A stretch of DNA of 64,000 nt from Picocystis sp. L7 (Eukaryota; Chlorophyta; Picocystophyceae; Picocystales; Picocystaceae). Of this stretch, positions 1,266 through 64,000 are shown one piece after another. Every line of letters starts with the position of its first letter. The stretch's first letter is position 1. Position numbers and translations under genes: made by a program. The DNA is taken from positions 1-64,000 of the forward strand of contig QXJR01000015.1 in the NCBI GenBank assembly GCA_020975725.1, read 5' to 3'. Under the pieces are notes generated by a model. It worked only from the letters and a program-made list of their open reading frames with translations. It did not search any database and had not been told where the DNA came from.

Positions 1266-1912
1266 TGTAAGGGACTCATCGTCCCAGGCCCCCCATCGAG
1301 GAGCCTCTTTCTCCCCTTACTGTCCTCAGCCGCCCAGACAAGGGCAGGGGACTCGGATTTGCATGCTTGAATGGATGGTTGGGGTTGGGGTATTCCCTTA
1401 CAATAGGGATCCCCCCACCTGTACCAGACGGACCGGGGCGAGGTCCCCCCTCACGGGATCCTCGGTTCAGCACCGATCGGTGCCCCGACCAGGTGGAGGT
1501 TTCGACCCCCAGGTCGGCTGCCCTCCACACGATCCGGTGCTCGAAACCGGGGGATCGAATCTACTGGCTCGATCCGATCGAGGGATCGAACGGCCAGGAG
1601 CGCCCCAGCCGGATGCATCGACCAGGTCGCCGGTGCTCCACCATCCGATGGAGCACAGGAGCCGCCAGGAGATCTTGGCCCTTGGCCGTCTTGGGCGGAT
1701 AAGGCCTGGCGAGACCATCCCCCTGTGCGAGACCTCTCTAGGACCTCTCACGGGACTTTGTAATCGAACCAGAACCTTCCTGACTCCAGCTCTCAAGCGT
1801 GCTCAGGTTCTCCACGCGACCACACCAGCCACCTTGCTCCGCCTCACGAAAAGTGCTTTCATCCAAGCTTACCGCACGGTGATTTGCTGTGCGAGTAACA
1901 AGAACCACAACA
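1266..1912 (+). repeat. 5' LTR of gypsy copy 1
   Basis: A 647-bp direct repeat of 8073-8719, starting TGTAAGGGACTC and ending CCACAACA. An 84-codon minus-strand frame and a 111-codon plus-strand frame stay open in every copy of this LTR. I regard them as chance frames in GC-rich DNA. Confidence 0.95.
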
Positions 1913-1937
1913 GAGTGTACGAGTTCCGTCGATCGTG

Positions 1938-2993
1938 ATGCCCGAAGCAACCGTGGACGACACCACCTCAGTGGAAGTCCTCATGGAACGGATAAAAGAG
2001 TTGGAAGAGGAGTTGGCCAATGCTCAGCCATCTCCTGAAGACCACAATCCAAAGCATGTCCCCGCTGAATTCAGCGACATGTTCGAAGCATTACGCAAAT
2101 CTGGGGCTGTCAAGGGCATCGACTTGCCCACGCCCACGATCTTCACTGGTGAAGAACTCAAGAAAGACCCCTATGCCTTGCATAGGTGGTACAAGGAAGT
2201 GTCTTGCTGGGTAAAAGCAAGAGTTGGCAAGGACATACCACAAGCTGCCATGGCGTTGCAAACGCTTGGCGGTACGGCAAGACTGGCCATGGAGAACAGG
2301 GAGTCATCTCATCCCGGACAGTTGAAATCAATCGATGCGATCTTGCAGGCCCTCTTGGACATCTTCCAAAGATGTGATCCAGGCTCAAAGGCATACGATG
2401 AGTTCTTACGAACTCGTATGCGCCCTGAAGAAACAGCCGTTGATTTCCTCAACAGGTTGTTGTCCCTTTCTGTGGTCATCAACAGCAGCAAGGACCCAAC
2501 AGTCCACCGTATTACCGACGAAGAACTTGCTGCCCGCTTCCGTGCAGGACTGCCAGGGTGGATGATGCAACAGCTTCGCGAAAAGCATCAGTTGCTGGTC
2601 AGCCTCCATCAAGTTCCAGATGTGAGTGCATGGGGACTGGCAGGAACCGCAATGGAGATTGAACAAAACAGATCCCATAACCAGGTGACCACAAGGAAAT
2701 TCAAGAAAAAGTATGTCCCCGGACGTACGAATGCCGTTCTGGACAGCAGGGTCCAACATCACCAGCCCAACAGGCAGCAGCGCTCATCGAAGCGATTTCA
2801 AGACCTGGAGGAACAAGACAAGGATGCCATCAGGGCTCTCAAGGAAGACCTCAAGCCTTATGAACTGAAGGCCACACTGCCTTGTGGGATTCTCAAGCGA
2901 TGCCGTGAGTTGTCGGTCTGCGAATCATGCCACCGATACGGACACAACAGCAAAGGGTGCAAAGCCCGCGATGTGTTCAGTCCAAAAAACTAG
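1938..2993 (+). CDS. gag: Gag capsid/nucleocapsid protein, gypsy copy 1
   Basis: Gag packages the element RNA in virus-like particles. The ATG at 1938 (MPEATVDD) lies 25 bp after the 5' LTR and gives 351 residues. An N-terminal acidic coiled-coil-like stretch (MERIKELEEELANA) is followed by a retrotransposon Gag (capsid) region, residues about 50-230, with the motif DPYALHRWYKE. A basic region comes next, then a CCHC zinc knuckle of the form CX2CX4HX4C near the C terminus (CESCHRYGHNSKGC). The stop codon follows directly after an A-AAA-AAC slippery sequence, and pol continues in the -1 frame. Copy 3 encodes an almost identical protein, and copy 2 a diverged one with the same layout. Confidence 0.9.
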   Translation: MPEATVDDTTSVEVLMERIKELEEELANAQPSPEDHNPKHVPAEFSDMFEALRKSGAVKGIDLPTPTIFTGEELKKDPYALHRWYKEVSCWVKARVGKDIPQAAMALQTLGGTARLAMENRESSHPGQLKSIDAILQALLDIFQRCDPGSKAYDEFLRTRMRPEETAVDFLNRLLSLSVVINSSKDPTVHRITDEELAARFRAGLPGWMMQQLREKHQLLVSLHQVPDVSAWGLAGTAMEIEQNRSHNQVTTRKFKKKYVPGRTNAVLDSRVQHHQPNRQQRSSKRFQDLEEQDKDAIRALKEDLKPYELKATLPCGILKRCRELSVCESCHRYGHNSKGCKARDVFSPKN

Positions 2994-5900
2994 GCAAACT
3001 CCAGCGGTCAATGGGGCTTGACCGCATGGAGCCGGGAGCGTCAGCGAACACTCCCCCAAGTATGGATCTGCCCCCTTTGAAAGATCCAGAAACCAAGCAA
3101 ACAGATTGGCAGGCTATGCAGGAGCACGCTGTCCGTAATCGCCGACCAGGGCAGGTGCTGCCACTGCATGCCATCAACAACCTTACACCAAGAAAAGAAT
3201 TTCTCACCTCGCAGTGTTCGTTTGCCCACAGACGATCTCCGGTGAACAGTCAAGCCTACCTGGATACTCTTTCCAGTTTCTCCTTTGTGACGCCCCAGCT
3301 CTTACGAAGGATCCAAGAGTCCGATACCAGGGGCACAACCTGGAGGACAACCCAAGAATTTGTGGAATTTGGAGTTGCTGTGGGTAGCAACATCCACAAA
3401 GCACCCATCGTGAATCTGCAAATCAAGATCGACAGTTTCTGTGTGTGGCACGACTTCGGAGTGGCCCCCATACAAGAGTTCGAATGTATACTGGGCAGTG
3501 ACTTTTCGAATGCTTATCTCCAGGTGCTCAATTGGCAGCAAAGGAAAATGGTTCTGCTGGACTCAGCAGGAAAGCGCCACACCGTTCACGGGGACGGCAA
3601 GTTCATCCAGGCACGACGACTTGACTTAGTTGTCCCTGCCGCTGAAGTTCGAAAAGCCGTTCGCACACCAGGATGCCTTTACCTGATCGTACAACCGCAA
3701 GACGCTCGATGGGAGCTTGAAGCTGAAGAACAGGAGCTCCAGTTGGAAAAAAGCCAACTCAGCTCACAGGTAACACTCACAAAACAGGAACAGCAGCGAT
3801 TGCAGGATTTGCTGGACTCATATGCAGACTGCTTCCAGCCCCGGAAGGAACCACCCACTGAACGAGTCCCGGGTGAAAACTTCAGCATCCCGTTACAACC
3901 AGGAACATCACCCCAGTTCACCCAATATTACAGGCTATCGCCATCGGAGCGCGAGGAGTTACGCAAATTGCTTGCAGAATATGTGGATGCAGGAAAGATG
4001 GATATTTGTGCTGGCTCAGCATGGGGGGCGCCCGTGATCCTCGTTCCGAAGAAGGACGGTGGATGGCGCGTCGTCTTTGACTATCGTAAACTGAACAACG
4101 TTGCGATCAAAGACAGATATCCCCTACCGCGCATCGACGATTTCTTGCAAGGTCTCGGTGGATCCCAGTTCTTTTCAGCAATGGATGCATTGGATGGGTT
4201 TCACCAGCTGCCCATGAACCCAGCAGACATTGACAAGACTGCAGTACAGACCCCTTTTGGTAGCTACACCTGGAGGGTGATGCCAATGGGAATTGCAAAT
4301 GCACCTGCAGCTTTTCAAAGGATGATGAATAGAATCTTCGGTCACTTGACCTTTGCCAAGGTCTATGTGGACGATATTCTGATTCACTCCAGTAGCAAGG
4401 AAGCCCACTTCCAGCATCTGGAGGAGTTGTTGCAGGTGTGCAGGACTGCCGACATCCGCTTGAAGCGGTCAAAATGTCATTTTTTCTGTACCACTCTGGA
4501 CTGGGTAGGTTTCCGCATCGAAAACCAAGAGCTGCGATGTTCGCCCCAAAAGCTCAACAAGATACAGCATTTCCCCAAGCCAAGGACACAGAAAGAAAAT
4601 ATGGCCTTTCTTGGCCTCTGCCAGTTCTATCTCAGATTTGTGCCACACTATTCAGACATTGCAGCCCCACTTACAGAATTGAACAAGAAAAAATACGCTC
4701 ACGATTTCCAACGCTATTGGATGGAACAGCATGATCAAGCCTTCCAGCAACTCGTAAAGCATCTCACCACTGCCCCAGCACTGGTGCTGTTCAATGAGGA
4801 TCGCCCCACTCGGGTAGAGACCGATGCGTCCAGCATTGGGATGGGGGCTGTGCTGCAGCAAGAAATCGCCCCAGGCGAGTGGCGGCCAGTCGAATATTGG
4901 AGTCGCAAGTTCAATGCAGCCCAGCGTAACTATCACGCTGCGGAACGCGAGACTTGCGCTATCGTCTACGCACTGGCGCATTGGAGACATCTGCTATTTG
5001 GGTGCCCATTTACTGTCATCACCGACAACACAGCATCCAAATACTTGACAACCAAAAGTGTCCAACAGTTATCGCCACGCGATGCCCGCTGGATCGAAAA
5101 GTTAGCGTACTACGCTCCGTTCAGCGTAGAGTATCGCCCTGGAAAAGAAAATGTGGGAGCCGACTATTTCTCCCGTCATCCGGTGAACGATGCAGCAGTA
5201 CCGTTACGAACAATGACGATCCTGGACCTCTGTGCAGGAATGGGCACGACACTTCGCGCCCTCGAACTGGCCATACCTGAAGATGGAGCACTCACTATCA
5301 ATTACATTGCAGTGGAACAAGATCCAGATTGTAGAGCAGTAATTCAAAGGGTCTTCAACTCAGTACACTTGACCCGTCCTGGACTCTTCATACGGGAAGA
5401 TATATTCAGATATGGAAACGACGTGCGCACCCTTGCGCATCGCCGGAAACTTCCCACGGTGGACTTGCTGATTGCAGGAGTACCCTGCCAGCCATTCTCA
5501 CGTGCCAAGACTTCAACCACAGACCCGCCATTGGGCCTGCGTGACGCACGAGAGTTATTCACAGCCATCAGGGACATACGAACCCGTATACCAACAGAAC
5601 ACTCCTACATCGTAGAGTGTACTCCGTTCGCAGCCCACCTGCAGAATGATCTGGAGCGCATCAGCGAGTGGTTGGGAGAACCGCAGGAACACCACATGGA
5701 TGAATACTCCCCGCAGCAGCGAACAAGACTTTGCTGGACGAATCTTCCACCGCCGAAACCCGATCATGACTTGCTGTCCACAGTACCGCTTACGTGGCAG
5801 GACTGCCTGGAAGAGGGATCGACGCCCCCGCTCGATTCACGGGGCCTGCCCCGCTTAAAATGCCCAACACTCATGGCTTCCGCCAACAGTCACAGTGACC

Positions 5901-8038
5901 GTTCGCGTACCACCTGGGTAGTGGGACAAGACAATCTTCTGCGCGAACTTTCCATCCAGGAGCGCGAAAAACTGGTAGGCATGCAGCCTGAAGATACTGC
6001 AGGGCACAGAATCACACCTGCAGCAAGACGACGAATGTGCGGCAATGCGTTCCCCGTCGGCTGGCTCGCTGTCCTTATTGCAGACATGCACAAGCTGTGG
6101 AATCGTACACTGCTAGGTACCCGTAGTGCAGATAATACAACTTGTGGTTCTGTGAACGCAATACGGACGCAGCGCAGCTCGTCCAACGACAATGGGTCAG
6201 CAGCACACATCACCAACGTACCGCTGCTATCGCGTATTCGCACAGCAATCTTGCATGACAAAGACTATCAAAACAAACTGAAGCATCCACCTCCAGGTTA
6301 CATCTGCAGAGATGGCCTCTTATTCCGCGACAACGCAACATCACCACTGGGACACTATGCAGGACCAGCAATTCTCCAAGCCCCCTTGGACAACGCTCTC
6401 CGCCAAGACATGCTCCACCTGGTGCACGATCGCGCCCACTTTGGCGCCCATCGTACATATGAAGCTGCCCGCCGACACTTTTATTGGCCCGGCATGAAGG
6501 CCCACATCAAGCAGTTTGTGGCACGGTGTCCCACCTGCCAGAGGATGAAGCCTACAAACACCAGCCGTGCGCGCCCGCAGCTGCCAGAAATGAGGTATTA
6601 TCCACATCCTTTTCATACAGTAGTGCTTGATGTGGTAGAAGGCCTGCCACTCACCCCTGATCATCACAATGCAGTGATCACGGTAGTGGATCGGCTTACG
6701 AAGTTCGCTGTTTACGTTCCCATGCATACATCATGGTCAGCCACTCGTCAAGCTCGTGCCTTACTGGACAATGTGGTGTACAAGTACCACACACCCACTA
6801 TCATACATACCGATAATGGTCCAGCCTATCGGAAGCTGTTCGCTGCTTATTGCACAGCTTTGGGGTCTAGCCACAAGACAGGCACCCCTTATCATTCACA
6901 GTCTCAAGGTCCGGTCGAACGCCAACATCGCACGCTGTTGCAGACACTGCGAACGATGACCGATAAACCAGAGAATTGGGATCAGTATTTGCAGGCCGCA
7001 GCGCACGCATACAACGACAGCGTGCACTCGCTTTTGGAACGCAGCCCCTTTGAAATGCTATATGGCTGCCCTTCCCGCCTACCGTGGCACCTGCAGTTGG
7101 TGACCACTGGTACTGAAACAAGAAATCTGCTTACTTCCCCAAACAAAATGATCACTGGATTGCTTACAGCACAGAGAAAAGTATACAGTGCCATTCAAGA
7201 CTTACTGGTGGACCGCGCCAAACAACAGGCTGCCTCCACCCAACATCTTCCTGCTCGTACGTTCAAGCCTGGTGATTGGGTAAAGTTACAATACGGACTG
7301 AAGGACACGCAGGATCGCCCGAAGCTCGAACCTTACTGGGAAGGACCGTACTGCATCGATAAAGCACTTGGCAATGATGCATACAGTTTAGTGCTGCCCC
7401 CTGGCACACGCTTTCAGAACCGCTTTCACGTGGACCGCCTGCTACCATGGATTGATTCAGATCTGTCCCTCTTTCCATTGGACCATCCTATACAGCCCTT
7501 GGACAGTCTTCCCACCTCAGTGCAGGAGACAACGATGGATCGATGGCCAGTTGCACGGTACTTGGTGCGAGACTTTTCACAGTTTCCTGCAAAGGCAATA
7601 CGCTACTGGGTTCGCGGACACGATCAGCAAACTTACTGGATTGATGAAGATGCAACAATCCTGGATGAAATATTGGACTTGGAAGAAACTAATGGATGCT
7701 TGCCGGAGTGCGGCATCAGCAAACGCAATCGTCATGCAGTGGAACAACACAAGCAGGGTGCATACCTGCTTACACCGAATCCAGTACTGCAAAACACCTG
7801 GACTTGGACATCCATGCCTTACAGCACCCGTCAACGACAGCAGTGGCAGCCACCTACCAAACTTCCTGGATCAGTGGTTATGGATGCTTTTGAAGTGGAT
7901 CAAGGCGTGCAACATTATAAAGGCATCGTTCAATCGGATGGACATACCGTACTTTGGACAGACGGTTACAAGACTCGCCACACAACAACAGAGGTCAGAA
8001 GCATGCTTTACAACCCTGTTGCGGTGGCATACAGCTAG
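2927..8038 (+). CDS. pol: Pol polyprotein with C5 cytosine DNA methyltransferase domain, copy 1
   Basis: One open frame of 1703 codons overlaps the end of gag. Domains in order (numbered from 2927): a retropepsin-like protease, about residues 100-230; reverse transcriptase, about 340-530, with YVDD near 479; RNase H, about 620-750, with VETDAS near 630; C5-methyltransferase, about 763-1045; integrase zinc finger HHCC, about 1166-1205, ending CPTCQRMK; and the integrase DDE core (LDVVEG near 1234, HTDNGPAY near 1294, PVERQHRTL near 1329). A C-terminal tail follows. Methyltransferase motifs seen are I (DLCAGMGTT), IV (GVPCQPFSRA, with the catalytic Cys near 853), VI (VECTP), VIII (QQRTRLCW) and X (GNAFPVGWL). 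The domain would methylate cytosine C5 in DNA, plausibly the element's own cDNA. It looks whole. Confidence 0.92.
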   Translation: MPPIRTQQQRVQSPRCVQSKKLGKLQRSMGLDRMEPGASANTPPSMDLPPLKDPETKQTDWQAMQEHAVRNRRPGQVLPLHAINNLTPRKEFLTSQCSFAHRRSPVNSQAYLDTLSSFSFVTPQLLRRIQESDTRGTTWRTTQEFVEFGVAVGSNIHKAPIVNLQIKIDSFCVWHDFGVAPIQEFECILGSDFSNAYLQVLNWQQRKMVLLDSAGKRHTVHGDGKFIQARRLDLVVPAAEVRKAVRTPGCLYLIVQPQDARWELEAEEQELQLEKSQLSSQVTLTKQEQQRLQDLLDSYADCFQPRKEPPTERVPGENFSIPLQPGTSPQFTQYYRLSPSEREELRKLLAEYVDAGKMDICAGSAWGAPVILVPKKDGGWRVVFDYRKLNNVAIKDRYPLPRIDDFLQGLGGSQFFSAMDALDGFHQLPMNPADIDKTAVQTPFGSYTWRVMPMGIANAPAAFQRMMNRIFGHLTFAKVYVDDILIHSSSKEAHFQHLEELLQVCRTADIRLKRSKCHFFCTTLDWVGFRIENQELRCSPQKLNKIQHFPKPRTQKENMAFLGLCQFYLRFVPHYSDIAAPLTELNKKKYAHDFQRYWMEQHDQAFQQLVKHLTTAPALVLFNEDRPTRVETDASSIGMGAVLQQEIAPGEWRPVEYWSRKFNAAQRNYHAAERETCAIVYALAHWRHLLFGCPFTVITDNTASKYLTTKSVQQLSPRDARWIEKLAYYAPFSVEYRPGKENVGADYFSRHPVNDAAVPLRTMTILDLCAGMGTTLRALELAIPEDGALTINYIAVEQDPDCRAVIQRVFNSVHLTRPGLFIREDIFRYGNDVRTLAHRRKLPTVDLLIAGVPCQPFSRAKTSTTDPPLGLRDARELFTAIRDIRTRIPTEHSYIVECTPFAAHLQNDLERISEWLGEPQEHHMDEYSPQQRTRLCWTNLPPPKPDHDLLSTVPLTWQDCLEEGSTPPLDSRGLPRLKCPTLMASANSHSDRSRTTWVVGQDNLLRELSIQEREKLVGMQPEDTAGHRITPAARRRMCGNAFPVGWLAVLIADMHKLWNRTLLGTRSADNTTCGSVNAIRTQRSSSNDNGSAAHITNVPLLSRIRTAILHDKDYQNKLKHPPPGYICRDGLLFRDNATSPLGHYAGPAILQAPLDNALRQDMLHLVHDRAHFGAHRTYEAARRHFYWPGMKAHIKQFVARCPTCQRMKPTNTSRARPQLPEMRYYPHPFHTVVLDVVEGLPLTPDHHNAVITVVDRLTKFAVYVPMHTSWSATRQARALLDNVVYKYHTPTIIHTDNGPAYRKLFAAYCTALGSSHKTGTPYHSQSQGPVERQHRTLLQTLRTMTDKPENWDQYLQAAAHAYNDSVHSLLERSPFEMLYGCPSRLPWHLQLVTTGTETRNLLTSPNKMITGLLTAQRKVYSAIQDLLVDRAKQQAASTQHLPARTFKPGDWVKLQYGLKDTQDRPKLEPYWEGPYCIDKALGNDAYSLVLPPGTRFQNRFHVDRLLPWIDSDLSLFPLDHPIQPLDSLPTSVQETTMDRWPVARYLVRDFSQFPAKAIRYWVRGHDQQTYWIDEDATILDEILDLEETNGCLPECGISKRNRHAVEQHKQGAYLLTPNPVLQNTWTWTSMPYSTRQRQQWQPPTKLPGSVVMDAFEVDQGVQHYKGIVQSDGHTVLWTDGYKTRHTTTEVRSMLYNPVAVAYS
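2984..2990 (+). promoter_or_regulatory. Putative -1 ribosomal frameshift site
   Basis: In the gag frame the sequence reads CCA AAA AAC TAG. This gives the canonical slippery heptamer A-AAA-AAC immediately before the gag stop, and pol is open in the -1 frame from 2927 onward. The same heptamer in the same position occurs in copies 2 and 3. Gag-to-pol frameshifting is known in Ty3/gypsy elements; its use here is inferred. Confidence 0.75.
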
Positions 8039-8072: not shown

Positions 8073-8719
8073 TGTAAGGGACTCATCGTCCCAGGCCCCC
8101 CATCGAGGAGCCTCTTTCTCCCCTTACTATCCTCAGCCGCCCACACAAGGGCAGGGGACTCGGATTTGCATGCTTGAATGGATGGTTGGGGTTGGGGTAT
8201 TCCCTTACAGTAGGGAAACCCCCACCTGTACCAGACGGACCGGGGCGAGGTCCCCCCTCACGGGATCCTCGGTTCAGCACCGATCGGTGCCCCGACCAGG
8301 TGGAGGTTTCGACCCCCAGGTCGGCTGCCCTCCACACGATCCGGTGCTCGAAACCGGGGGATCGAATCTACTGGCTCGATCCGATCGAGGGATCGAACGG
8401 CCAGGAGCGCCCCAGCCGGATGCATCGACCAGGTCGCCGGTGCTCCACCATCCGATGGAGCACAGGAGCCGCCAGGAGATCTTGGCCCTTGGCCGTCTTG
8501 GGCGGATAAGGCCTGGCGAGACCATCCCCCTGTGCGAGACCTCTCTAGGACCTCTCACGGGACTTTGTAATCGAACCAGAACCTTCCTGACTCCAGCTCT
8601 CAAGCGTGCTCAGGTTCTCCACGCGACCACACCAGCCACCTTGCTCCGCCTCACGAAAAGTGCTTTCATCCAAGCTTACCGCACGGTGATTTGCCGTGCG
8701 AGTAACAAGAACCACAACA
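8073..8719 (+). repeat. 3' LTR of gypsy copy 1
   Basis: The 647-bp partner of 1266-1912. By eye it differs from its own 5' LTR at 6 positions but from the 5' LTR of copy 3 (59548-60194) at only 2. That hints at exchange between copies. Confidence 0.95.
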
Positions 8720-8734
8720 ACGGGGTGGCAGAGG

Positions 8735-23268: not shown

Positions 23269-23834
23269 ATGGACGGACTCGACACTTCATGGCGATCGCG
23301 AGCGCCAACCGTGAACGAATCGTACGTGGCTTGGTTGCAGATACAGGAGGCTTTGGAAAAGGACGAAGAAGACAAAGAACGCAAGCGGAGGCAAAGCATG
23401 GTTGAAATGCTGCACACTCAGCAAAGGGCACTGGTCATGTGCCTTGAGGTGGTGTCCAGCGCATTCGCCAACACTACGTTGCCAAATATCTTGGAAGCCT
23501 AGGAGCGATCTTGTTGGAAGTTGGACAGGCGACAGAACAACTTCGAGGAGTTGTTTGGAAAACGAACGAACGAGGAGACGTTCAAGCGTCACATGCGTAT
23601 GACAGAAAGCAGCTTCGAAAAACTTTTGGACCTGGTTCGGGATAGGTTGCAGCCATCGCGTTTCTCGAGACTCGACTACATGTCCCCAAGGAGAATACTG
23701 ACCCTCACTGTGTTACGTCTTGCTCACGGATACACGTTTCATAGCTTAGGTCAGTTGTTTGCGATTGGGGTATCCTCTGCGCAAAAGTGCTATGCGAGAG
23801 GTATCGAGGCTGTTGCACGATGGGAGAATGCGTC
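23269..23834 (+). pseudogene. PIF/Harbinger-like transposase N-terminal half, truncated
   Basis: The frame begins MDGLDTSW at 23269 and has one TAG at 23500-23502, either a mutation or part of an unseen intron. It continues in the same frame with NNFEELFGKRTNEETFKRH, then RMTESSFEKLLDLVRDRL and RILTLTVLRLAHGYTFHSLG. This is the helix-rich N-terminal pattern of HARBI1-like/DDE_Tnp_4 proteins. The sequence is cut at 23834 by the LTR of gypsy copy 2, and the DDE half is not found on the far side (37898 onward). A plain DNA transposon remnant or a domesticated HARBI1-like gene would both fit. Confidence 0.6.
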
Positions 23835-24424
23835 TGTTGTGGTTGGATGGCTTGGGGCAGGTTGTGAAGCGACAGCAGGTCGTACAACAGCCCAAGTTTC
23901 TGGCACTTTGCGTGTGGAGAAGGTTCCACGTTGAGTTGGGAGGTGCGGAGAACCAAAGCGCACCTGGAGCTGAGATCAGGAAGGTTCTAATTCAATTACA
24001 AGATCCTGTGGGAAGCCCTAGGTGGCTTCTCACAGGGGGGTGGTGTTTCCAGGCCTTATCCACCATGAGATCTGCTCCGCAAAGATCTCTTGGTGGGTCT
24101 GGTGCCCAACCCAACGGTGAAGATCCGTTCTGTTGGGGAGCAAGGGCTGCTGGAGCCCTTCTGGCCGTCCGATCCGCCAGGGCAGAGCCTCGGGATTGGG
24201 GAACCCTCGATCGAGTACCCTTCTGTGTTGGGGCCTCGAGGTAGGGACCGATCTCTGTATAGGGACCGGGGGTTCACCCAAAATGACCGGGGGGGACTGT
24301 CTGTCTCCAATCAAGCCAGAAGGGACCACCCACGCATAAGCTAGTATAACCGAATCCTGGGGCCCTTGGTTGGGTGACCCAGGATGGAGGGGAGACCGAG
24401 GCTCCTCGTAGGGGGGCCTGGGAC
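23835..24424 (-). repeat. 3' LTR of gypsy copy 2, main part
   Basis: 590 bp of the LTR. The remaining 15 bp lie at 31120-31134 beyond the hAT insertion, and together they equal the 605 bp of the other LTR. Confidence 0.93.
24417..24424. repeat. 8-bp target duplication (left) of hAT
   Basis: cctgggac, repeated perfectly at 31112-31119. The unfilled site, with one copy, is present at 37875-37882 in the partner LTR. Confidence 0.95.
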
Positions 24425-24520
24425 CTGGGGTGGGTGCGAAAAGATTTGGGCCGGTGCGAAAAGATGGGTGCGAAATGGATCGAAGGAGGGGATTTCGCAC
24501 CGGGTGCGAAAAGGGCGAAA
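24425..24520 (+). repeat. hAT left terminal repeat and subterminal motifs
   Basis: The terminal 19 bp are followed by further gggtgcgaaaa-type motifs near 24452, 24468 and 24505. Such clustered motifs are typical transposase binding sites in hAT elements. Confidence 0.85.
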
Positions 24521-28258: not shown

Positions 28259-28279
28259 GAACTACTGTTGTCAATTCTA

Positions 28280-31166: not shown

Positions 31167-34100
31167 TCAACTGTAAACTACTGCTACAGGGTTGTACAAA
31201 AGAGCCTGGAGCTCTGATGTCCTGTGTTTTGTCTTGAACCCATCAGTCCATACCACCGTGCGTCCATCGGTCTGTATGAGACCCTGATAGAACTGCACGC
31301 CCTGGTCAATCTCAAAGGCCTCCATCACTACTTGTCCAGCCAGCCTAGAAGGAGGCTTCCACTGCTGCCGCTGTCGAGTGCTGTACGGCAGAGATGACCA
31401 GGTCCATGTATTCTGCAGAATAGGATTGGGGGTCTGCATGTAGATGTCTTCTTTGTGTTGCCGGACGGCGTCCAGGTTGCGCTTGCCGATGCTGCGCTCG
31501 GGCAGGCATCCATTCGTTTCCTCCAGGTCCAATATTTCATCCAGATTCTGTGCGCTCTCGCTGACCCAGGAAGTCTGGCCATCGTGCGAGCGAGCCCAGT
31601 ACTTTACTGCACCTGCTGGAAAATCCACAAAGTCGCGCACTAGATATTGCGCAATCTGTAATTGCGTCCCGCCGAGTTCCTGCACTGAGGTGGGAAGCTG
31701 GTCCAATGGCTGCGCAGCGCGATCCATTGGGAACAGTGTCAGATCTGATTCAATCCACGGTCTGAGACGATCCACGTGGAATCGATTCTGGAAGCGAGTA
31801 CCGGGGGGCAGCTTCAGGCTATAGGCATCCTGACCCAATGCTCTGTCAATGCAGTAGGGCCCTTCCCAGTATGGATCGAGTTTGGGGCGATCCCGTGTGC
31901 TTTTTAGTCCATACTGGAGCTTGACCATATCCCCTGACTTGAATGTCCTGTTGGGGAGGTCCTGTGTCATGGTTGCCTGTTCGCGTGCGCGTTTCACCAG
32001 CAGGTCCCGTACATCATTGTACACTCTGCGCTGCTCGTGTAGCAAACCAGTGACCATCTTGTTGGGTGTAGTCAGCAGTTGCCTTGTTGGCAGGTCTGCT
32101 GTTGTGATCTGCAGATGCCACGGCAAGCGAGATGCACAGCCATATAACATCTCAAAGGGACTGCGTTGCAGCAACGGGTGCACGCTATCGTTGTATGCGT
32201 GCGCTGCAGCTTGAAGGTACTGATCCCAATTGTCGGGGCGTTCGGACGATGTGCGCAGCGTCTGTAGAAGCGTGCGATGCTGGCGTTCCACTGGTCCCTG
32301 CGACTGCGAATGGTACGGGGTACCGGTCTTGTGGCTGGCACCCAAGGCTGTATAGTACGCGCTGAACAGTTTGCGATACGCAGGCCCATTATCTGTATGA
32401 ATGATGGATGGGGTATGATACCTGTACACCACACAATCCAGCAGCGCACGGGCTTGTTTCGTTGCGGACCAGGTTGTGTGCATGGGAATGTACACAGCAA
32501 ACTTCGTAAGGCGGTCGACTACGGTGATCACTGCATTGTGGTGATCAGGAGTGACTGGCAAGCCTTCAACCACATCCACCACTACAGTATGAAATGGATG
32601 AGGATAGAACCTCATCTCTGGAAGATGAGGCCGAGCGGCGCTCTTGTTTGCTGGCTTCATTCTCTGGCAGGTAGGGCACCGTGCCACAAATTGCTTGATG
32701 TGTGTCTTCATGCCAGGCCAGATAAAGTGTCGACGAGCTGACTCGAACGTACGATGGGCTCCAAAGTGGATGCGATCGTGCACCAGGTGAAGCAGATCCT
32801 GGCGTAGCGCATTGTCTTGAGGGACGGGCAGAACCGCTGGACCTGCGTAGCGTCCAAATTCTGCAGATGCATTGTCTTGAAACAGCAGACCATTCCTGCA
32901 TGTATATCCACCAGGTGGGTGGTCCAGGTAGGTCAAGTATTGCTGGTCATTCTGAATCGCTGTACGAATGCGTGACAGTAAAGGTACACCTGATAGGTGT
33001 ACTGCCGATCCATTGTCGCTAGGAGGGGAGTGTCGTGGAGCAGCCGTTACCAAACCACTCATAGTGATGTCACTACGGGTACCGAGCAGTTTACGAATCC
33101 ATGAGTGGTACCAATCTGCTACTAGCACGGACAGCCATCCTACCGGAAAGGCGTTTCCACACATTCTTCTGCGAGCATCAGGGGTAATCTTGTACCCTGC
33201 TGTGTCATTGGGCTGCATGCCCACCAAGCGTTCGCGTTCCTGTATCGTCAATTCGCGCAGGGTCTGGTTTTGTCCCATGCCCCAAGTGGAACGCGAGCGG
33301 TCACTGTGACTGCCTGGCGATGCCATCAGAGTGGGGCATTTCAGGCGGGGCAGGCCCTGGTTATCCAACGGGGGAGTCGCCCCAGGTTCCAAGCAGTCTT
33401 GCCAGGTTAGGGGCAACCCTGACGATAGATGTTCCTGTGGTTTGGGTGGAGGCAGATCTGTCCAGCATAAGCGAGTGCGCTGCTGGGCAGAAAAGTGAGC
33501 CATGTTGTGTTCTTGTGGCTCTCCAAACCATTCATTGATGCGCTCCAGGTCATCCTGCAGATGCGGAGCGAACGGGGTACACTCTATGCTGTAGGAGTGT
33601 CCCCCTACCAGGCGGTTGCGAATCTCTCGCACCGCTGTGAACAGTTCACGCACATCGCGCAGCCCCAGAGGAGGGTCTCTGTCTGATGTGTTGGCGCGCG
33701 AAAAGGGCTGGCACGGCACGCCAGCGATCAATAGGTCCACCGGTGGCAGCAAGCGACGATGCGCTAGGGTGCGCACATCGCTGCCATAGCGAAAGATGTC
33801 TTCGCGTATGAACAGGCCAGGTCTTGAGAGGTGAACAGGATTGAACACGCGTTGTACGATTGCTGCGCAATCGGGGTCCTGCTCCACTGCAATGTAGTTG
33901 ATGGACAACTGTGCAGTTTCTGGGATGGCTTGTTCGAGGGCACGAAGGGTCGTACCCATTCCTGCACAGAGGTCCAGGACAGTAATCGTCTTGAGCGGTT
34001 TGGCTGAATCATCCACCGGGTGGCGTGAGAAGTAATCTGCGGCCACATTCTGACTTCCAGGGCGGAATTCCACGTTGAATGGGGCATAGTATGCCAGTTT

Positions 34101-36186
34101 TTCGATCCAGCGAGAGTCGCGGGGCGACAACTGCTGTACGCTCTTTGTCGTAAGGTACTTGGATGCTGTGTTATCGGTGATGACTGTAAACGGTCGGCCG
34201 AACACCAAGTGCTTCCAGTGAGCCAATGCGTAAACGATGGCACACGTTTCGCGTTCAGCAGCGTGGTAGTTTCGCTGAGCTGAATTGAACTTGCGGCTCC
34301 AGTACTCGACCGGACGCCATTCGCCCGGGGAGATTTCCTGGTGCAGTACTGCCCCCATGCCAATATTTGACGCGTCTGTCTCGATGCGGATCGCGTGATC
34401 CTCATTGTACAGCGCCAGCGCAGGAGCAGTGGTGAGCTGGGTCACCAGCAGATCAAAAGCATGGTCATGTCGATCCAACCAGTAGCGCTGAAAGTCGTGG
34501 GCGTACTTTTTCTTGTTGAGCTCAGTGAGTGGAGCTGCAGCATCTGAGTAGTGAGGTACAAACCTCAAGTAGAATTGGCATAGGCCCAGAAAGGCCATGT
34601 TTTCTTTCTGCGATCTGGGTTTGGGGAAGTGCTGGATCTTGCTGAGCTTTTGCGGTGCGCACCGCAGCTCCTGGTTCTCGATCCTGAACCCAACCCAGTC
34701 CAATTTGGTGCAAAAAATGGCACTTTGTACGTTTCAAACGTACATCTGCAGCCCTGCACACTTGGAAAAGGTCTTCAAGGTGCTGGAAGTGAGCTTCCTT
34801 GCTGGTTGAGTGAACCAGGATGTCATCCACATAGACCTTAGAAAAGGTCAAGTGTCCGAAAATCCTGTTCATCATTCTCTGGAAGGCTGCTGGGGCATTT
34901 GCTATGCCCATGGGCATTACCCTCCAGGTGTAACTCCCAAAGGGAGTCTGAACTGCTGTTTTTTGGATGTCTTCTGGGTTCATTGGCAACTGATGGAACC
35001 CGTCCAATGCGTCCAGCGCAGAAAAGTAACGGGCGCCGCCCAGCCCCTGCAGAAAGTCATCGATGCGTGGCAGAGGGTATCGATCTTTTATCGCAACATT
35101 GTTCAGCTTGCGATAATCGAACACCACTCTCCAGCCTCCATCCTTCTTGGGGACCAGGATCACTGGTGCACCCCAGGCTGAGCCTGCACAAACATCCATT
35201 TTCCCTGCATCCACATATTCACTCAGCAGCTTTCGCAACTCTTCGCGTTCTGTTGGTGACAAGCGATAGTACTGGGTGAACTGTGGTTTTGCTTCAGATT
35301 CCAGGGGGATACTGAAGTTTTCGCCGGGGACCCGTTCCGCGGGTGGACCCTTCCTTGCCTTAAAGCAGTCTGAATATTGGTCCAGGAGGTTGTCCAACCT
35401 CTGCTGTTCCGCTTCTGAGAGCGCGGCCTGCGCACTCAACTGGCTTCTGTCCTGCTGGAGCTCCTGCTCCTCTGTTTCCAATTCCCATCGCGTGTCCTGC
35501 GGTTGTACGATGAGATACAGGCAACCCGGTGTGCGCACCGCTTGCCTAACTTCAGCGGCAGGGACGATCAAGTCGAGTCGTCGTGCCTGGATGAAGTCCC
35601 CATCGCCATGTACTGTATGGCGACTTCCGGTTGCGTCTTGGAGGATCATGGTCCTTTGCTGCCAATTCAGCACCTGCAGGTAAGAGTTTGAAAAGTCACT
35701 GCCCAGGATACACTGAAAATCCTGGACAGGAGCAATACCAAAGTCATGCCAAACTCTGAAGCTGTCCATACTAAGTTCCAGGCGCACAATGGGGGCCTTG
35801 TGGGTTTCCTTCCCCACAGCCACACCAAATTCCACATACTCATCTGTGGTTTTCCAGGTGATGCCTTGTGCATCAGCCCGTTGTATCCTTTGTAACAACT
35901 GAGGTGCTACAAAGGAGAAGCTGGACAGTGTGTCCAGGTATGCTTGACTGCTCACCTTCGCTGGTCTGCGACCGAACGAGCATTGAGAGGTGAGAAACTC
36001 CTTCCTTGGAGCTGAATTATCTATTGCATGCAATGGCAGCACCTGTCCAGGTCTGCGATTCTGGACGGCCTGCAGCTGCAACGTCTGCAAATCATTCTGC
36101 TTGAGTCCTGGTTCCTTCAAGGGGGGCAGGTCCAGGTTAGGGGGAGCGTTCGCTGACGCTCCCGGCTCCATGCGGTCAACCCCCAT
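31167..36186 (-). pseudogene. pol: Pol polyprotein with C5 DNA methyltransferase, gypsy copy 2
   Basis: The layout matches copy 1: protease-like region, RT with YVDDIL, RNase H (IETDAS), C5-methyltransferase, integrase zinc finger (CPTCQRMKP), DDE core (HTDNGPAY, PVERQHRTL) and the same C-terminal tail ending YNPVAVVYS. The methyltransferase keeps DLCAGMGTTLRA, GVPCQPFSRA, IECTPF, QQRTRLCW and GNAFPVGWL despite clear divergence from copy 1 elsewhere. As it stands the pol region is broken in about one place. LTR similarity indicates a recent insertion. The methyltransferase part itself is open. Confidence 0.88.
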
Positions 36187-36203
36187 CGACCGTTGGAGCG
36201 CGT

Positions 36204-37268
36204 TCAGTTTTTTGAACTGAACACGGCACGGGCTTTACAGCCGCTGCCGCTGTGGCCATAGCGATGGCAGATATCGCACACAGAGAGTTGGCGGCATCGC
36301 TGAAGCAGGTCACCAGGGAGCTTTGCCTTCAGCTCATAGCCCTTGAGGTCCCCCTGGAGGGCCATGACCAATTCTTGGTCCCTCTCTTCCAGGTCCTTGA
36401 AGCGCTTGGACGCGCGCTGGGTCTTCACTGCCTCCTCCTTGGAGGACTTGCTGTCCTTCACAGCGCTGACGCGTCCCGCACGCTGTGGGCGTTTGGCAGC
36501 CTGTCCAGTCTGTTCACTGGAGCAGTTCTGCTCAATGTCCATGGCAGTTCCTGCTAATCCCCAGGGGCTGATGTCCGGGGTCTGGTGAAGTGTCACCAGC
36601 AGCTGATGCTTTTCGCGCATCCGCTGAATCATCCATATCGGGAGCCCTGCGCGGAAGCGTGCGGCCAGTTCCGCATCGGAAATGCGGGAGACTGTGGGAT
36701 CCTTGCTGCTGCCTATCACTACTGACAGTGACAGCAACCTGTTCAGGAAATCCATCGCTGTTTCGTCCGTTCGCATACGAGTTCTGAGGAACTCATCGTA
36801 TGCTTTTGGACCTGGGTCACATCTTTGGAAGATATTCAGCAGTGCGCTGAATATCGCATCCAAAGACTGTAGCTTTCCAGGGGCTGCTGTCTCCATGTTT
36901 TCCATTGCAAGGCGGGCTGTGCCTCCAAGTGTTTGGAGGGCCATAGCGTCCTGCGGAACGTCCTTCGCCACTCTTGCTTTGACCCAGCAAGAGGTCTCCT
37001 TATACCACCTGTGAAGGGCATAAGGATCCTTATTCAGCTCCTCCCCAGTGAAGACTGTGGGAGACGGCATTACAATGCCTTTGACTGCTCCGGACTTTCG
37101 GAGGGCTTCAAACATGTCGCTGAATTCAGCAGGTTCATGTTTGAAGTCCTCCTCTTCCTCGATGTCTTCGGGAGTGGCCAGCGACCTGGCCAAGTCCCTT
37201 TCCAGCTCCATTATCCTTTCTTCAAGGCGTGCTACTGTGGTAGCAGCCAGAACCGAATCTTCTTCCAT
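36204..37268 (-). CDS. gag: Gag protein, gypsy copy 2
   Basis: The ATG at 37268 (MEEDSVLAATTVARLEERI) lies 24 bp inside the 5' LTR boundary and gives 354 residues. It has an acidic coiled-coil-like N terminus, a capsid region with DPYALHRWYKETSCW, and a CCHC knuckle (CDICHRYGHSGSGC) near the end. It is diverged from copy 1 gag but the same length to within a few residues. A-AAA-AAC again precedes the stop. Confidence 0.88.
   Translation of the reverse strand: MEEDSVLAATTVARLEERIMELERDLARSLATPEDIEEEEDFKHEPAEFSDMFEALRKSGAVKGIVMPSPTVFTGEELNKDPYALHRWYKETSCWVKARVAKDVPQDAMALQTLGGTARLAMENMETAAPGKLQSLDAIFSALLNIFQRCDPGPKAYDEFLRTRMRTDETAMDFLNRLLSLSVVIGSSKDPTVSRISDAELAARFRAGLPIWMIQRMREKHQLLVTLHQTPDISPWGLAGTAMDIEQNCSSEQTGQAAKRPQRAGRVSAVKDSKSSKEEAVKTQRASKRFKDLEERDQELVMALQGDLKGYELKAKLPGDLLQRCRQLSVCDICHRYGHSGSGCKARAVFSSKN
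36207..36213 (-). promoter_or_regulatory. Putative -1 frameshift site, gypsy copy 2
   Basis: The minus strand reads TCA AAA AAC TGA, the same heptamer and position as in copy 1 although the surrounding codons and the stop differ. Confidence 0.7.
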
Positions 37269-37292
37269 CACGCCTGATGGACTCGTAAACTC

Positions 37293-37897
37293 TGTTGTGG
37301 TTGGATGGCTTGGGGCAGGTTGTGAAGCGACAGCAGGTCGTACAACAGCCCAAGTTTCTGGCACTTTGCGTGTGGAGAAGGTTCCACGTTGAGTTGGGAG
37401 GTGCGGAGAACCAAAGCGCACCTGGAGCTGAGATCACGAAGGTTCTAATTCAATTACAAGATCCTGTGGGAAGCCCTAGGTGGCTTCTCACAGGGGGGTG
37501 GTGTTTCCAGGCCTTATCCACCATGAGATCGGCTCCGCAAAGATCTCTTGGTGGGTCTGGTGCCCAACCCAACGGTGAAGATCCGTTCTGTTGGGGAGCA
37601 AGGGCTGCTGGAGCCCTTCTGGCCGTCCGATCCTCCAGGGCAGAGCCTCGGGATTGGGGAACCCTCGATCGAGTACCCTTCTGTGTTGGGGCCTCGAGGT
37701 AGGGACCGATCTCTGTATAGGGACCGGGGGTTCACCCAAAATGACCGGGGGGGACTGTCTGTCTCCAATCAAGCCAGAAGGGACCACCCACGCATAAGCT
37801 AGTATAACCGAATCCTGGGGCCCTTGGTTGGGTGACCCAGGATGGAGGGGAGACCGAGGCTCCTCGTAGGGGGGCCTGGGACCCAGAGTCCCTTTCA
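37293..37897 (-). repeat. 5' LTR of gypsy copy 2
   Basis: A 605-bp LTR. Its 37875-37882 segment is the natural empty site for the hAT insertion seen in the partner LTR. Confidence 0.94.
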
Positions 37898-59547: not shown

Positions 59548-60194
59548 TGTAAGGGACTCATCGTCCCAGGCCCCCCATCGAGGAGCCTCTTTCTCCCCTT
59601 ACTGTCCTCAGCCGCCCACACAAGGGCAGGGGACTCGGATTTGCATGCTTGAATGGATGGTTGGGGTTGGGGTATTCCCTTACAGTAGGGAAACCCCCAC
59701 CTGTACCAGACGGACCGGGGCGAGGTTCCCCCTCACGGGATCCTCGGTTCAGCACCGATCGGTGCCCCGACCAGGTGGAGGTTTCGACCCCCAGGTCGGC
59801 TGCCCTCCACACGATCCGGTGCTCGAAACCGGGGGATCGAATCTACTGGCTCGATCCGATCGAGGGATCGAACGGCCAGGAGCGCCCCAGCCGGATGCAT
59901 CGACCAGGTCGCCGGTGCTCCACCATCCGATGGAGCACAGGAGCCGCCAGGAGATCTTGGCCCTTGGCCGTCTTGGGCGGATAAGGCCTGGCGAGACCAT
60001 CCCCCTGTGCGAGACCTCTCTAGGACCTCTCACGGGACTTTGTAATCGAACCAGAACCTTCCTGACTCCAGCTCTCAAGCGTGCTCAGGTTCTCCACGCG
60101 ACCACACCAGCCACCTTGCTCCGCCTCACGAAAAGTGCTTTCATCCAAGCTTACCGCACGGTGATTTGCCGTGCGAGTAACAAGAACCACAACA
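59548..60194 (+). repeat. 5' LTR of gypsy copy 3
   Basis: 647 bp, with about 2 differences from the 3' LTR of copy 1. The sequence directly outside is gatgc. Confidence 0.95.
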
Positions 60195-60218: not shown

Positions 60219-61274
60219 ATGCCCGAAGCAACCGTGGACGACACCACCTCAGTGGAAGTCCTCATGGAACGGATAAAAGAGTTGGAAGAGGAGTTGGCCA
60301 ATGCTCAGCCATCTCCTGAAGACCACAATCCAAAGCATGTCCCAGCTGAATTCAGCGACATGTTCGAAGCATTACGCAAATCTGGGGCTGTCAAGGGCAT
60401 CGAATTGCCCACGCCCACGATCTTCACTGGTGAAGAACTCAAGAAAGACCCCTATGCCTTGCATAGGTGGTACAAGGAAGTGTCTTGCTGGGTAAAAGCA
60501 AGAGTTGGCAAGGACATACCACAAGCTGCCATGGCGTTGCAAACGCTTGGCGGTACGGCAAGACTGGCCATGGAGAACAGGGAGTCATCTCATCCCGGAC
60601 AGTTGAAATCAATCGATGCGATCTTCCAGGCCCTCTTGGACATCTTCCAAAGATGTGATCCAGGCCCAAAGGCATACGATGAGTTCTTACGAACTCGTAT
60701 GCGCCCTGAAGAAACAGCCGTTGATTTCCTCAACAGGTTGTTGTCCCTTTCTGTGGTCATCAACAGCAGCAAGGACCCAACAGTCCACCGTATTACCGAC
60801 GAAGAACTTGCTGCCCGCTTCCGTGCAGGACTGCCAGGGTGGATGATGCAACAGCTTCGCGAAAAGCATCAGTTGCTGGTCAGCCTCCATCAAGTTCCAG
60901 ATGTGAGTGCATGGGGACTGGCAGGAACCGCAATGGAGATTGAACAAAACAGATCCCATGACCAGGTGACCACAAGGAAATTCAAGAAAAAGTATGTCCC
61001 CGGACGTACGAATGCCGTTCTGGACAGCAGGGTCCAACATCACCAGCCCAACAGGCAGCAGCGCTCATCGAAGCGATTTCAAGACCTGGAGGAACAAGAC
61101 AAGGATGCCATCAGGGCTCTCCAGGAAGACCTCAAGCCTTATGAACTGAAGGCCACACTGCCTTCTGGGATTCTCAAGCGATGCCGCGAGTTGTCGGTCT
61201 GCGAATCATGCCACCGATACGGACACAACAGCAAAGGGTGCAAAGCCCGCGATGTGTTCAGTCCAAAAAACTAG
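60219..61274 (+). CDS. gag: Gag protein, gypsy copy 3
   Basis: 351 residues from the ATG at 60219, differing from copy 1 gag at only a handful of residues. Same capsid region and CCHC knuckle. The A-AAA-AAC heptamer at 61265-61271 precedes the stop. Confidence 0.9.
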   Translation: MPEATVDDTTSVEVLMERIKELEEELANAQPSPEDHNPKHVPAEFSDMFEALRKSGAVKGIELPTPTIFTGEELKKDPYALHRWYKEVSCWVKARVGKDIPQAAMALQTLGGTARLAMENRESSHPGQLKSIDAIFQALLDIFQRCDPGPKAYDEFLRTRMRPEETAVDFLNRLLSLSVVINSSKDPTVHRITDEELAARFRAGLPGWMMQQLREKHQLLVSLHQVPDVSAWGLAGTAMEIEQNRSHDQVTTRKFKKKYVPGRTNAVLDSRVQHHQPNRQQRSSKRFQDLEEQDKDAIRALQEDLKPYELKATLPSGILKRCRELSVCESCHRYGHNSKGCKARDVFSPKN

Positions 61275-64000
61275 GCAAACTCCAGCGGTCAATGGGGCTT
61301 GACCGCATGGAGCCGGGAGCGTCAGCGAACGCTCCCCCAAGTATGGATCTGCCCCCTTTGAAAGATCCAGAAACCAAGCAAACAGATTGGCAGGCTATGC
61401 AGGAGCACGCTGTCCGTAATCGCCGACCAGGGCAAGTGCTGCCACTGCATGCCATCAACAACCTTACACCAAGAAAAGAATTTCTCACCTCGCAGTGTTC
61501 GTTTGCCCACAGACGATCTCCGGTGAACAGTCAAGCCTACCTAGATACTCTATCCAGTTTCTCCTTTGTGACGCCCCAGCTCTTACGAAGGATTCAAGAG
61601 TCCGATACCAGGGGCACAACCTGGAGGACAACCCAAGAATTTGTGGAATTTGGAGTTGCTGTGGGTAGCAACATCCACAAAGCACCCATCGTGAATCTGC
61701 AAATCAAGATCGACAGTTTCTGTGTGTGGCACGACTTCGGAGTGGCCCCCATACAAGAGTTCGAATGTATACTGGGCAGTGACTTCTCGAATGCTTATCT
61801 CCAGGTGCTCAATTGGCAGCAAAGAAAAATGGTCCTGCTGGACTCAGCAGGAAAGCGCCACACCGTTCACGGGGACGGCAAGTTCATCCAGGCACGACGG
61901 CTCGACTTAGTCGTCCCTGCCGCTGAAGTTCGAAAAGCCGTTCGCACACCAGGATGCCTTTACCTGATCGTACAACCGCAAGACGCTCGATGGGAGCTTG
62001 AAGCTGAAGAACAGGAGCTCCAGTTGGAAAAAAGCCAACTCAGCTCACAGGTAACACTCACAAAACAGGAACAGCAGCGATTGCAGGATTTGCTGGACTC
62101 ATATGCAGACTGCTTCCAGCCCCGGAAGGAACCACCCACTGAACGAGTCCCGGGTGAAAACTTCAGCATCCCGTTACAACCAGGAACATCACCCCAGTTC
62201 ACCCAATATTACAGGCTATCGCCATCGGAGCGCGAGGAGTTACGCAAATTGCTTGCAGAATATGTGGATGCAGGAAAGATGGATATTTGTGCTGGCTCAG
62301 CATGGGGGGCGCCCGTGATCCTCGTTCCGAAGAAGGACGGTGGATGGCGCGTCGTCTTTGACTATCGTAAACTGAACAACGTTGCGATCAAAGACAGATA
62401 TCCCCTACCGCGCATCGACGATTTCTTGCAAGGTCTTGGTGGATCCCAGTTCTTTCCAGCAATGGATGCATTGGATGGGTTTCACCAGCTGCCCATGAAC
62501 CCAGCAGACATTGACAAGACTGCAGTACAGACCCCTTTTGGTAGCTACACCTGGAGGGTGATGCCAATGGGAATTGCAAATGCACCTGCAGCTTTTCAAA
62601 GGATGATGAATAGAATCTTCGGTCACTTGACCTTTGCCAAGGTCTATGTGGACGATATTCTGATTCACTCCAGTAGCAAGGAAGCCCACTTCCAGCATCT
62701 GGAGGAGTTGTTGCAGGTGTGCAGGACTGCCGACATCCGCTTGAAGCGGTCAAAATGTCATTTTTTCTGTACCACTCTGGACTGGGTAGGTTTCCGCATC
62801 GAAAACCAAGAGCTGCGATGTTCGCCCCAAAAGCTCAACAAGATACAGCATTTCCCCAAGCCAAGGACACAGAAAGAAAATATGGCCTTTCTTGGCCTCT
62901 GCCAGTTCTATCTCAGATTTGTGCCACACTATTCAGACATTGCAGCCCCACTTACAGAATTGAACAAGAAAAAATACGCTCACGATTTCCAACGCTATTG
63001 GATGGAACAGCATGATCAAGCCTTCCAGCAACTCGTAAAGCATCTCACCACTGCCCCAGCACTGGTGCTGTTCAATGAGGATCGCCCCACTCGGGTAGAG
63101 ACCGATGCGTCCAGCATTGGGATGGGGGCTGTGCTGCAGCAAGAAATCGCCCCAGGCGAGTGGCGGCCAGTCGAATATTGGAGTCGCAAGTTCAATGCAG
63201 CCCAGCGTAACTATCACGCTGCGGAACGCGAGACTTGCGCTATCGTCTACGCACTGGCGCATTGGAGACATCTGCTATTTGGGTGCCCATTTACTGTCAT
63301 CACCGACAACACAGCATCCAAATACTTGACAACCAAAAGTGTCCAACAGTTATCGCCACGCGATGCCCGCTGGATCGAAAAGTTAGCGTACTACGCTCCG
63401 TTCAGCGTAGAGTATCGCCCTGGAAAAGAAAATGTGGGAGCCGACTATTTCTCCCGTCATCCGGTGAACGATGCAGCAGTACCGTTACGAACAATGACGA
63501 TCCTGGACCTCTGTGCAGGAATGGGCACGACACTTCGCGCCCTCGAACTGGCCATACCTGAAGATGGAGCACTCACTATCAATTACATTGCAGTGGAACA
63601 AGATCCAGATTGTAGAGCAGTAATTCAAAGGGTCTTCAACTCAGTACACTTGACCCGTCCTGGACTCTTCATACGGGAAGATATATTCAGATATGGAAAC
63701 GACGTGCGCACCCTTGCGCATCGCCGGAAACTTCCCACGGTGGACTTGCTGATTGCAGGAGTACCCTGCCAGCCATTCTCACGTGCCAAGACTTCAACCA
63801 CAGACCCGCCATTGGGCCTGCGTGACGCACGAGAGTTATTCACAGCCATCAGGGACATACGAACCCGTATACCAACAGAACACTCCTACATCGTAGAGTG
63901 TACTCCGTTCGCAGCCCACCTGCAGAATGATCTGGAGCGCATCAGCGAGTGGTTGGGAGAACCGCAGGAACACCACATGGATGAATACTCCCCGCAGCAG
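61208..64000 (+). CDS. pol: Pol polyprotein, gypsy copy 3 (partial at window edge)
   Basis: Corresponds to 2927-5719 of copy 1 and reads through protease, RT (YVDDIL), RNase H (VETDASSIG) and the methyltransferase up to motif VI (VECTPF) and slightly beyond. It runs off the window. Nearly identical to copy 1 over the shared part. Confidence 0.88.
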   Translation, partial: MPPIRTQQQRVQSPRCVQSKKLGKLQRSMGLDRMEPGASANAPPSMDLPPLKDPETKQTDWQAMQEHAVRNRRPGQVLPLHAINNLTPRKEFLTSQCSFAHRRSPVNSQAYLDTLSSFSFVTPQLLRRIQESDTRGTTWRTTQEFVEFGVAVGSNIHKAPIVNLQIKIDSFCVWHDFGVAPIQEFECILGSDFSNAYLQVLNWQQRKMVLLDSAGKRHTVHGDGKFIQARRLDLVVPAAEVRKAVRTPGCLYLIVQPQDARWELEAEEQELQLEKSQLSSQVTLTKQEQQRLQDLLDSYADCFQPRKEPPTERVPGENFSIPLQPGTSPQFTQYYRLSPSEREELRKLLAEYVDAGKMDICAGSAWGAPVILVPKKDGGWRVVFDYRKLNNVAIKDRYPLPRIDDFLQGLGGSQFFPAMDALDGFHQLPMNPADIDKTAVQTPFGSYTWRVMPMGIANAPAAFQRMMNRIFGHLTFAKVYVDDILIHSSSKEAHFQHLEELLQVCRTADIRLKRSKCHFFCTTLDWVGFRIENQELRCSPQKLNKIQHFPKPRTQKENMAFLGLCQFYLRFVPHYSDIAAPLTELNKKKYAHDFQRYWMEQHDQAFQQLVKHLTTAPALVLFNEDRPTRVETDASSIGMGAVLQQEIAPGEWRPVEYWSRKFNAAQRNYHAAERETCAIVYALAHWRHLLFGCPFTVITDNTASKYLTTKSVQQLSPRDARWIEKLAYYAPFSVEYRPGKENVGADYFSRHPVNDAAVPLRTMTILDLCAGMGTTLRALELAIPEDGALTINYIAVEQDPDCRAVIQRVFNSVHLTRPGLFIREDIFRYGNDVRTLAHRRKLPTVDLLIAGVPCQPFSRAKTSTTDPPLGLRDARELFTAIRDIRTRIPTEHSYIVECTPFAAHLQNDLERISEWLGEPQEHHMDEYSPQQ
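61265..61271 (+). promoter_or_regulatory. Putative -1 frameshift site, gypsy copy 3
   Basis: Identical in sequence and context to the site in copy 1. Confidence 0.72.

Follow-up and report, generated by a model that had tools for sequence, protein, structure and literature searches.

A gypsy-type retrotransposon family with a DNMT3-like cytosine methyltransferase domain inside Pol in the genome of a putative green alga

Can a retrotransposon carry the enzyme that would methylate its own DNA? This question is raised by positions 1 to 64,000 of contig QXJR01000015.1 (this whole stretch of 64,000 nucleotides is called the window below), where a gypsy-type long terminal repeat (LTR) element, copy 1, holds a predicted C5-cytosine methyltransferase (MTase) domain in its Pol reading frame. 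A preliminary description of the window had placed a full MTase between the RNase H and integrase of a gypsy polyprotein, and this was borne out: motifs I, IV (PC), VI (Glu), VIII and X follow one another in order at 5174-6151 (Pol residues 750-1075), with the catalytic Cys codon of copy 1 at 5486-5488. Taking the evidence together, we consider it rather likely that the window holds members of a gypsy-type LTR family that is active, or was so very recently, and whose Gag-Pol includes an intact-looking DNMT3-like MTase; this degree of confidence is meant for our best explanation as a whole, including the self-methylation proposal set out below.

The element shows the features of Ty3/gypsy, namely the order reverse transcriptase (RT), RNase H and integrase, an integrase with an H2C2 motif and a DDE core followed by an SH3_Tf2-1 module, LTRs with TG..CA termini, and a short target-site duplication (TSD) in the family (Table 1). 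The protease-like active site in copy 1 Pol reads DTL instead of DTG or DSG, no Pfam match was found for its gag product (352 aa), and a chromodomain (PF00385) was reported neither in the window Pol nor in the Pfam annotation of the database relatives P0001-P0018. Weak Tudor/Agenet-like matches were seen after the integrase C-terminus in L041, a related element (Pol residues 1818-1869), and in P0017 (E values of 2e-4 and 0.09, under the curated cut-offs); such relatives may thereby carry a chromatin reader, and the window copy gave no such match. The pol frame lies at -1 relative to gag and the two open reading frames (ORFs) overlap. The stretch with the candidate slip site is CCAAAAAACTAG, and its heptamer A_AAA_AAC has what we take to be the pattern of a -1 frameshift site. 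All 13 copies examined, which come from subfamilies with 57 to 100% Pol identity to copy 1, end gag with AAAAAAC and an immediate stop (TAG, TGA or TAA). From this conserved heptamer and the -1 overlap we therefore infer that Gag-Pol is made by -1 frameshifting and that the MTase is produced solely as part of it.

Table 1. Positions of retrotransposon features in the window.
Feature	Position	Strand	Remarks
5' LTR of copy 1	1266..1912	+	647 bp, TG...CA termini
gag ORF of copy 1	1935..2993	+	352 aa, one CCHC knuckle CX2CX4HX4C
pol ORF of copy 1	2927..8038	+	1703 aa: protease-like, RT, RNase H, C5-MTase, integrase, SH3_Tf2-1
Candidate slippery heptamer A_AAA_AAC	2984..2990	+	directly before gag stop TAG
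C5-MTase domain of copy 1	5174..6151	+	DNMT3-like by alignment, PDB profile search, structure model and fold comparison
3' LTR of copy 1	8073..8719	+	pairs with 1266..1912
3' LTR of copy 3	23833..24425	-	separated from pol by a later insertion of ~7 kb
Copy 3, second subfamily	31167..37421	-	76% identity over Pol residues 512-1703; pol split across two frames
Copy 3, RNase H-MTase-integrase	31167..34703	-	
Copy 3, RT	34522..36186	-	
Copy 3, putative gag-position ORF	36204..37421	-	
5' LTR of copy 3	37291..37883	-	593 bp, 99.5% to 23833-24425
5' LTR of copy 2	59548..60194	+	no difference over 647 bases from its 3' LTR, which lies beyond the window; 4-bp TSD ATGC
pol of copy 2	61181..64000	+	continues past the window, matching up to contig position 66316; protein identity 100% (rounded)

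Is the MTase maintained? We aligned 39 MTases (the window copy, 15 loci of the same genome and 23 database proteins), and the catalytic Cys, which the preliminary description had found intact in copy 1, is present in every one of them, as are the motif VI Glu and the second Arg of motif VIII; the motif VI Asn occurs in five. In the least saturated informative pair (L030/L035), the ratio of nonsynonymous to synonymous substitution rates (dN/dS) was lowest in RT (0.013), RNase H (0.017) and integrase (0.029), higher in the integrase C-terminal region (0.070) and the MTase (0.088), and highest in the linker that follows the MTase (0.190). By this measure the MTase is under purifying selection, and its distances among 30 elements run parallel to those of RT (r 0.96).

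The 20.5 Mb assembly (30 contigs) holds many such copies. A profile search with PF00145, in which 123 of 177 candidates were scored, gave at least 121 places; six rows are host genes (L001, L002, two of L003, L004 and L038), and among the other 115 all those with an inspected reading frame lie in a gypsy Pol. Protein searches listed 29 and 38 rows; discounting seven rows common to both and one element that was split, these correspond to ~59 distinct places, a lower bound that includes partial copies. Pol was free of internal stops in 16 of 23 frames inspected (from 29 loci), and 4-bp TSDs surround seven of the eight copies with flanks read, which all belong to the subfamily of the window copy. 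Copy 2, with its identical LTRs and the TSD ATGC, is therefore a recent insertion. The exception among the eight is copy 1, for which no TSD was found; together with the six differences between its LTRs (99.07% identity over 648 aligned bases) this suggests that copy 1 arose by recombination between elements. Directly after its 3' LTR lie three 187-bp tandem repeats with 98% matching (8731-9284).

What would the enzyme do? If Gag-Pol is made by frameshifting, this anatomy would bring the MTase into the particle together with RT and integrase and place it next to nascent cDNA. Ahead of integration, or in the course of it, the enzyme would methylate the element cDNA or DNA adjoining the insertion site, and a new copy would then resemble resident methylated DNA or quietly enter methylation maintained by the host, whose genes include MET1, CMT and DRM. 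We put methylation of cDNA or insertion site by the MTase at roughly an even chance. Self-methylation of cDNA by such elements is also proposed by De Mendoza et al. in those passages of PMC5890265 that deal with retroelement-borne DNA methyltransferases (DNMTs). Transposon-borne de novo methylases would invert the picture of methylation as purely a weapon of the host.

The target context can be approached from the sequence. At the position of DNMT3A Arg836 the 39 MTases have Ser (33), Trp (4), Thr (1) or Ala (1) and in no case Arg, a count that depends on the alignment of the target recognition domain. We take Arg836 to be the residue with which DNMT3A reads CpG, and its absence from all 39 enzymes makes a strictly CpG target context improbable for them. 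Among titles of PDB entries, 6brr shows R836 as a studied mutant and 6u8w gives Lys777 of DNMT3B at that position.

Several observations weigh against our explanation. The region equivalent to Arg836 is of low confidence in the structure model (residues 230-245, predicted local distance difference test score < 50). A primer site was looked for and not found: no TGG directly follows the 5' LTR of copy 1, the next 25 bases show no complementarity to that LTR over a length of 8 or more, and no tRNA gene was found in the window. Copy 1 also has no footprint of CpG loss, with an observed/expected ratio of 0.755 vs 0.60-0.97 in host gene loci. The ratio was 0.67-0.81 in four other element loci and lowest (0.573) in the copy-3 stretch, where a later insertion makes up half the length, and there was no CHG depletion in copy 1 (1.21). 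The suggestion of the preliminary description that the element methylates its own cDNA is plausible; the MTase may act outside CpG, weakly or briefly, or may methylate without mutating these young copies. The missing CpG footprint would also suit an enzyme that modifies RNA (the element genome or a primer) and not DNA, and RNA methylation is raised for SymbioLINE-Dnmt in the above passages of PMC5890265. We consider an RNA target very improbable: the top-ranking matches by fold belong to DNMT3-type enzymes, which act on DNA, and a DNMT2-like placement was rejected by the approximately unbiased (AU) test (p 0.029 and 0.006), though the Shimodaira-Hasegawa test keeps it (0.33 and 0.23).

Patterns of constraint on the domain also weigh against our explanation. 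The MTase is less constrained than RT and integrase in L030/L035; three recent pairs gave dN/dS of 0.10-0.38 from few changes, so that constraint may be relaxed in them, and one further pair was saturated beyond an estimate. Two of seven interrupted copies (L019 and L020) have a stop inside the MTase. P0066, a relative outside the 39, has lost PCQ and still has an open Pol of 1520 aa, and catalysis is therefore dispensable in at least one lineage. This relative, and the faster evolution of the MTase than of RT, are what a passenger domain kept for folding or DNA binding, with unimportant catalysis, would lead one to expect. Set against that are the catalytic Cys and Glu, retained in 39 of 39 aligned MTases across elements whose RT identities to the window copy go down to ~30%, and we regard the passenger explanation as improbable. 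With a compact genome, open-frame subfamilies, a relative with decayed catalysis and an insertion with identical LTRs, the benefit of the methylase to the element would be directly testable.

Where does the MTase come from? Among solved structures, to which this comparison is confined, those nearest to it are DNMT3, ranking first in both the PDB profile search and the fold comparison; DRM2 and CMT3 were not among the 50 VIA-align matches listed. Profile and fold matches extend the likeness to DNMT3A/3B and to phrog_116 phage MTases over the complete MTase fold. The element enzyme differs from DNMT3A/3B in that no PWWP or ADD domain was found in Pol, in ECT for ENV in motif VI, and in the missing Arg836 equivalent. 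The phylogeny proposed as a check in the preliminary description gave a partial answer: AU tests rejected DNMT1-, DNMT2- and Dcm-like placements, and sisterhood with DNMT3/DRM (p 0.61 and 0.57) and with the phage-contig MTase L046 (p 0.28 and 0.45) fit alike. Ultrafast bootstrap (UFBoot) values for DNMT3(/DRM) with the elements were 86 in one analysis and 86 and 82 in another, from a tree with few DNMT3 sequences. That the MTase stems from a DNMT3/DRM-like enzyme of phages or prokaryotes, and is no descendant of a DNMT3 gene of the host, would agree with the phrog_116 match to the single MTase domain (E 2.1e-22, chiefly motifs I-IV), with the L046 sisterhood kept by the AU test, and with the separate grouping (UFBoot 99 and 97) of DNMT3A/B and host DRM, which leaves the elements outside. 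DNMT3/DRM sisterhood fits the trees equally well and DNMT3 comes first by fold and PDB profile, and we hold a phage or prokaryotic source to be a real possibility that falls somewhat short of even. L046, the nearest of 20 viral-contig loci (19 with an MTase ORF), is from an IMG/VR contig, and its MTase groups with DNMT3/DRM and the element MTases vs DNMT1/2 and Dcm-like enzymes (UFBoot 97-100), which offers a starting point for tracing how DNMT3-like enzymes arose.

The host can be judged from its own genes. It has MET1 (946 aa queried, of which 82-100% align with MET1 of named land plants at 41-44% identity), a chromodomain CMT, a C5-MTase with a C-terminal PWWP domain, a circularly permuted DRM colinear with structure 4onq (E 7.5e-38), and a green-type LHCII, for which chlorophyll a-b binding proteins make up the matches listed; 9vfj 'LHCI-2', which ranks first, would also suit a secondary green alga. 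To us these sequences point to a green alga whose DNMT set is of streptophyte type, and the dinoflagellate host against which the preliminary description had cautioned does not agree with them. Passages of PMC12344493 confine DRM to streptophytes, so that with its DRM the host is possibly a streptophyte alga; they also describe 'ChloroDNMTs' from chlorophytes and charophytes, in which PWWP is often present, and name Prasinoderma merely as worth study. A haptophyte host, as the EukProt label 'Pavlova_lutheri' on P0008 and P0024 would have it, was rejected on the same green-type LHCII, plant-type MET1, CMT, PWWP-DNMT and DRM. Across the queried 946 aa, P0024 matches the host MET1 at 100%, and P0008 is 100% identical to a copy in this genome; mislabelling or contamination is the probable cause. 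The window further contains a host gene for a bacterial-type GlpX fructose-1,6-bisphosphatase (55300-56400, minus strand, E 4e-133), here in a green alga.

Is the element new? PMC5890265, the main primary report on retroelement-borne DNMTs among the open-access matches listed, describes in the passages used here KnitGypsy-Dnmt3 of Klebsormidium nitens, a gypsy element with a DNMT3-type MTase in Pol, and itself points to two previous notices that connected DNMTs with RT domains; a passage of PMC12344493 repeats the report with 'LTR Copia' in place of the original Gypsy. KnitGypsy-Dnmt3 shares with our element the LTR gypsy domain content, the MTase inside the Pol ORF and purifying selection on it. 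Compared by description, its repeats are DIRS-like (PMC5890265, Fig. 4 legend) and those here are ordinary LTRs with 4-bp TSDs. According to the same passages its MTase was negative in yeast, a result called inconclusive by the authors, and two SymbioDIRS MTases gave de novo CG methylation there. SymbioDIRS-Dnmt3 likewise has a DNMT3-type MTase in Pol, in a DIRS element with a tyrosine recombinase instead of the DDE integrase with H2C2 seen here, and SymbioLINE-Dnmt, also a retrotransposon-borne C5-MTase, is a LINE with an orphan MTase lineage in an upstream ORF, unlike this gypsy Pol (both PMC5890265). The passages of PMC6338049, PMC9998398, PMC8226300 and PMC12730594 bearing on the subject hold no further gypsy case, and no report of this family was found among the open-access matches listed (subscription papers, preprints and Repbase lay outside this scope). 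The element is thus a further, differently built example of a gypsy-borne DNMT3-type MTase and not the first; of the preliminary claim of a further case in another lineage, the further case in a non-dinoflagellate host stands, and the other lineage is unproved given Klebsormidium.

Membership in the KnitGypsy-Dnmt3 family itself, in a streptophyte alga related to Klebsormidium, is a tentative alternative. It would account for the common superfamily, DNMT type and MTase position within Pol, as well as for the DRM and CMT of the host and its land-plant-like MET1. The different repeats speak against it, as does, weakly and with most rows nameless, the lack of any Klebsormidium-named protein among the 23 MTase matches and the best 120 of 2059 RT matches. 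K. nitens itself is probably not the host: the MET1 cluster P0024 is sourced from EukProt alone, and K. nitens proteins are, we assume, present in NCBI.

Among relatives, P0001-P0018 have the same domain set with 42-93% identity over the MTase region, and P0019-P0023 are more distant (28-34%). An RT tree of 133 sequences, its MTase-less elements picked by similarity to the window RT, placed all 32 group members together (30 MTase-bearing elements, the decayed P0066 and the truncated P0063) with no MTase-less element within, at a weak support of 0.687. This single grouping favours one old acquisition of the MTase. Some relatives are EukProt entries that match this organism, and the others lie on contigs drawn from ENA, JGI and further sources; if taken as environmental sequence, they may widen the known spread of MTase-bearing elements. 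A bolder scenario, which we think unlikely, is a single ancient capture of a phage- or prokaryote-like MTase not restricted to CpG that founded a large gypsy clade across many hosts, the packaged enzyme pre-marking cDNA in a context read by host CMT/DRM; in that case the element, not the host, would author the initial methylation.

The genome also holds mosaic and distant members of the group. L014 (G000:C3:483329-488428) is close to copy 1 in RT (synonymous distance, dS, 0.087) and far from it in the MTase (dS 2.2), which is near-identical to that of L015 (dS 0.040). As expected from template switching or recombination, its 5' part would come from one subfamily and its 3' part from another. 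L005, L007 and L008 represent a second, distant MTase-bearing gypsy lineage (MTase 37-38% identical) with the motif I E-L-C-A-G-G-T-G. In the window, the ~7 kb insertion in copy 3 (~24426-31130) lies at or near the start of its 3' LTR; it carries a hAT-like transposase ORF (28280-30247, minus strand) as well as tandemly arrayed units of 57/81/135 bases (24761-28259), an array open over 1200 codons on both strands.
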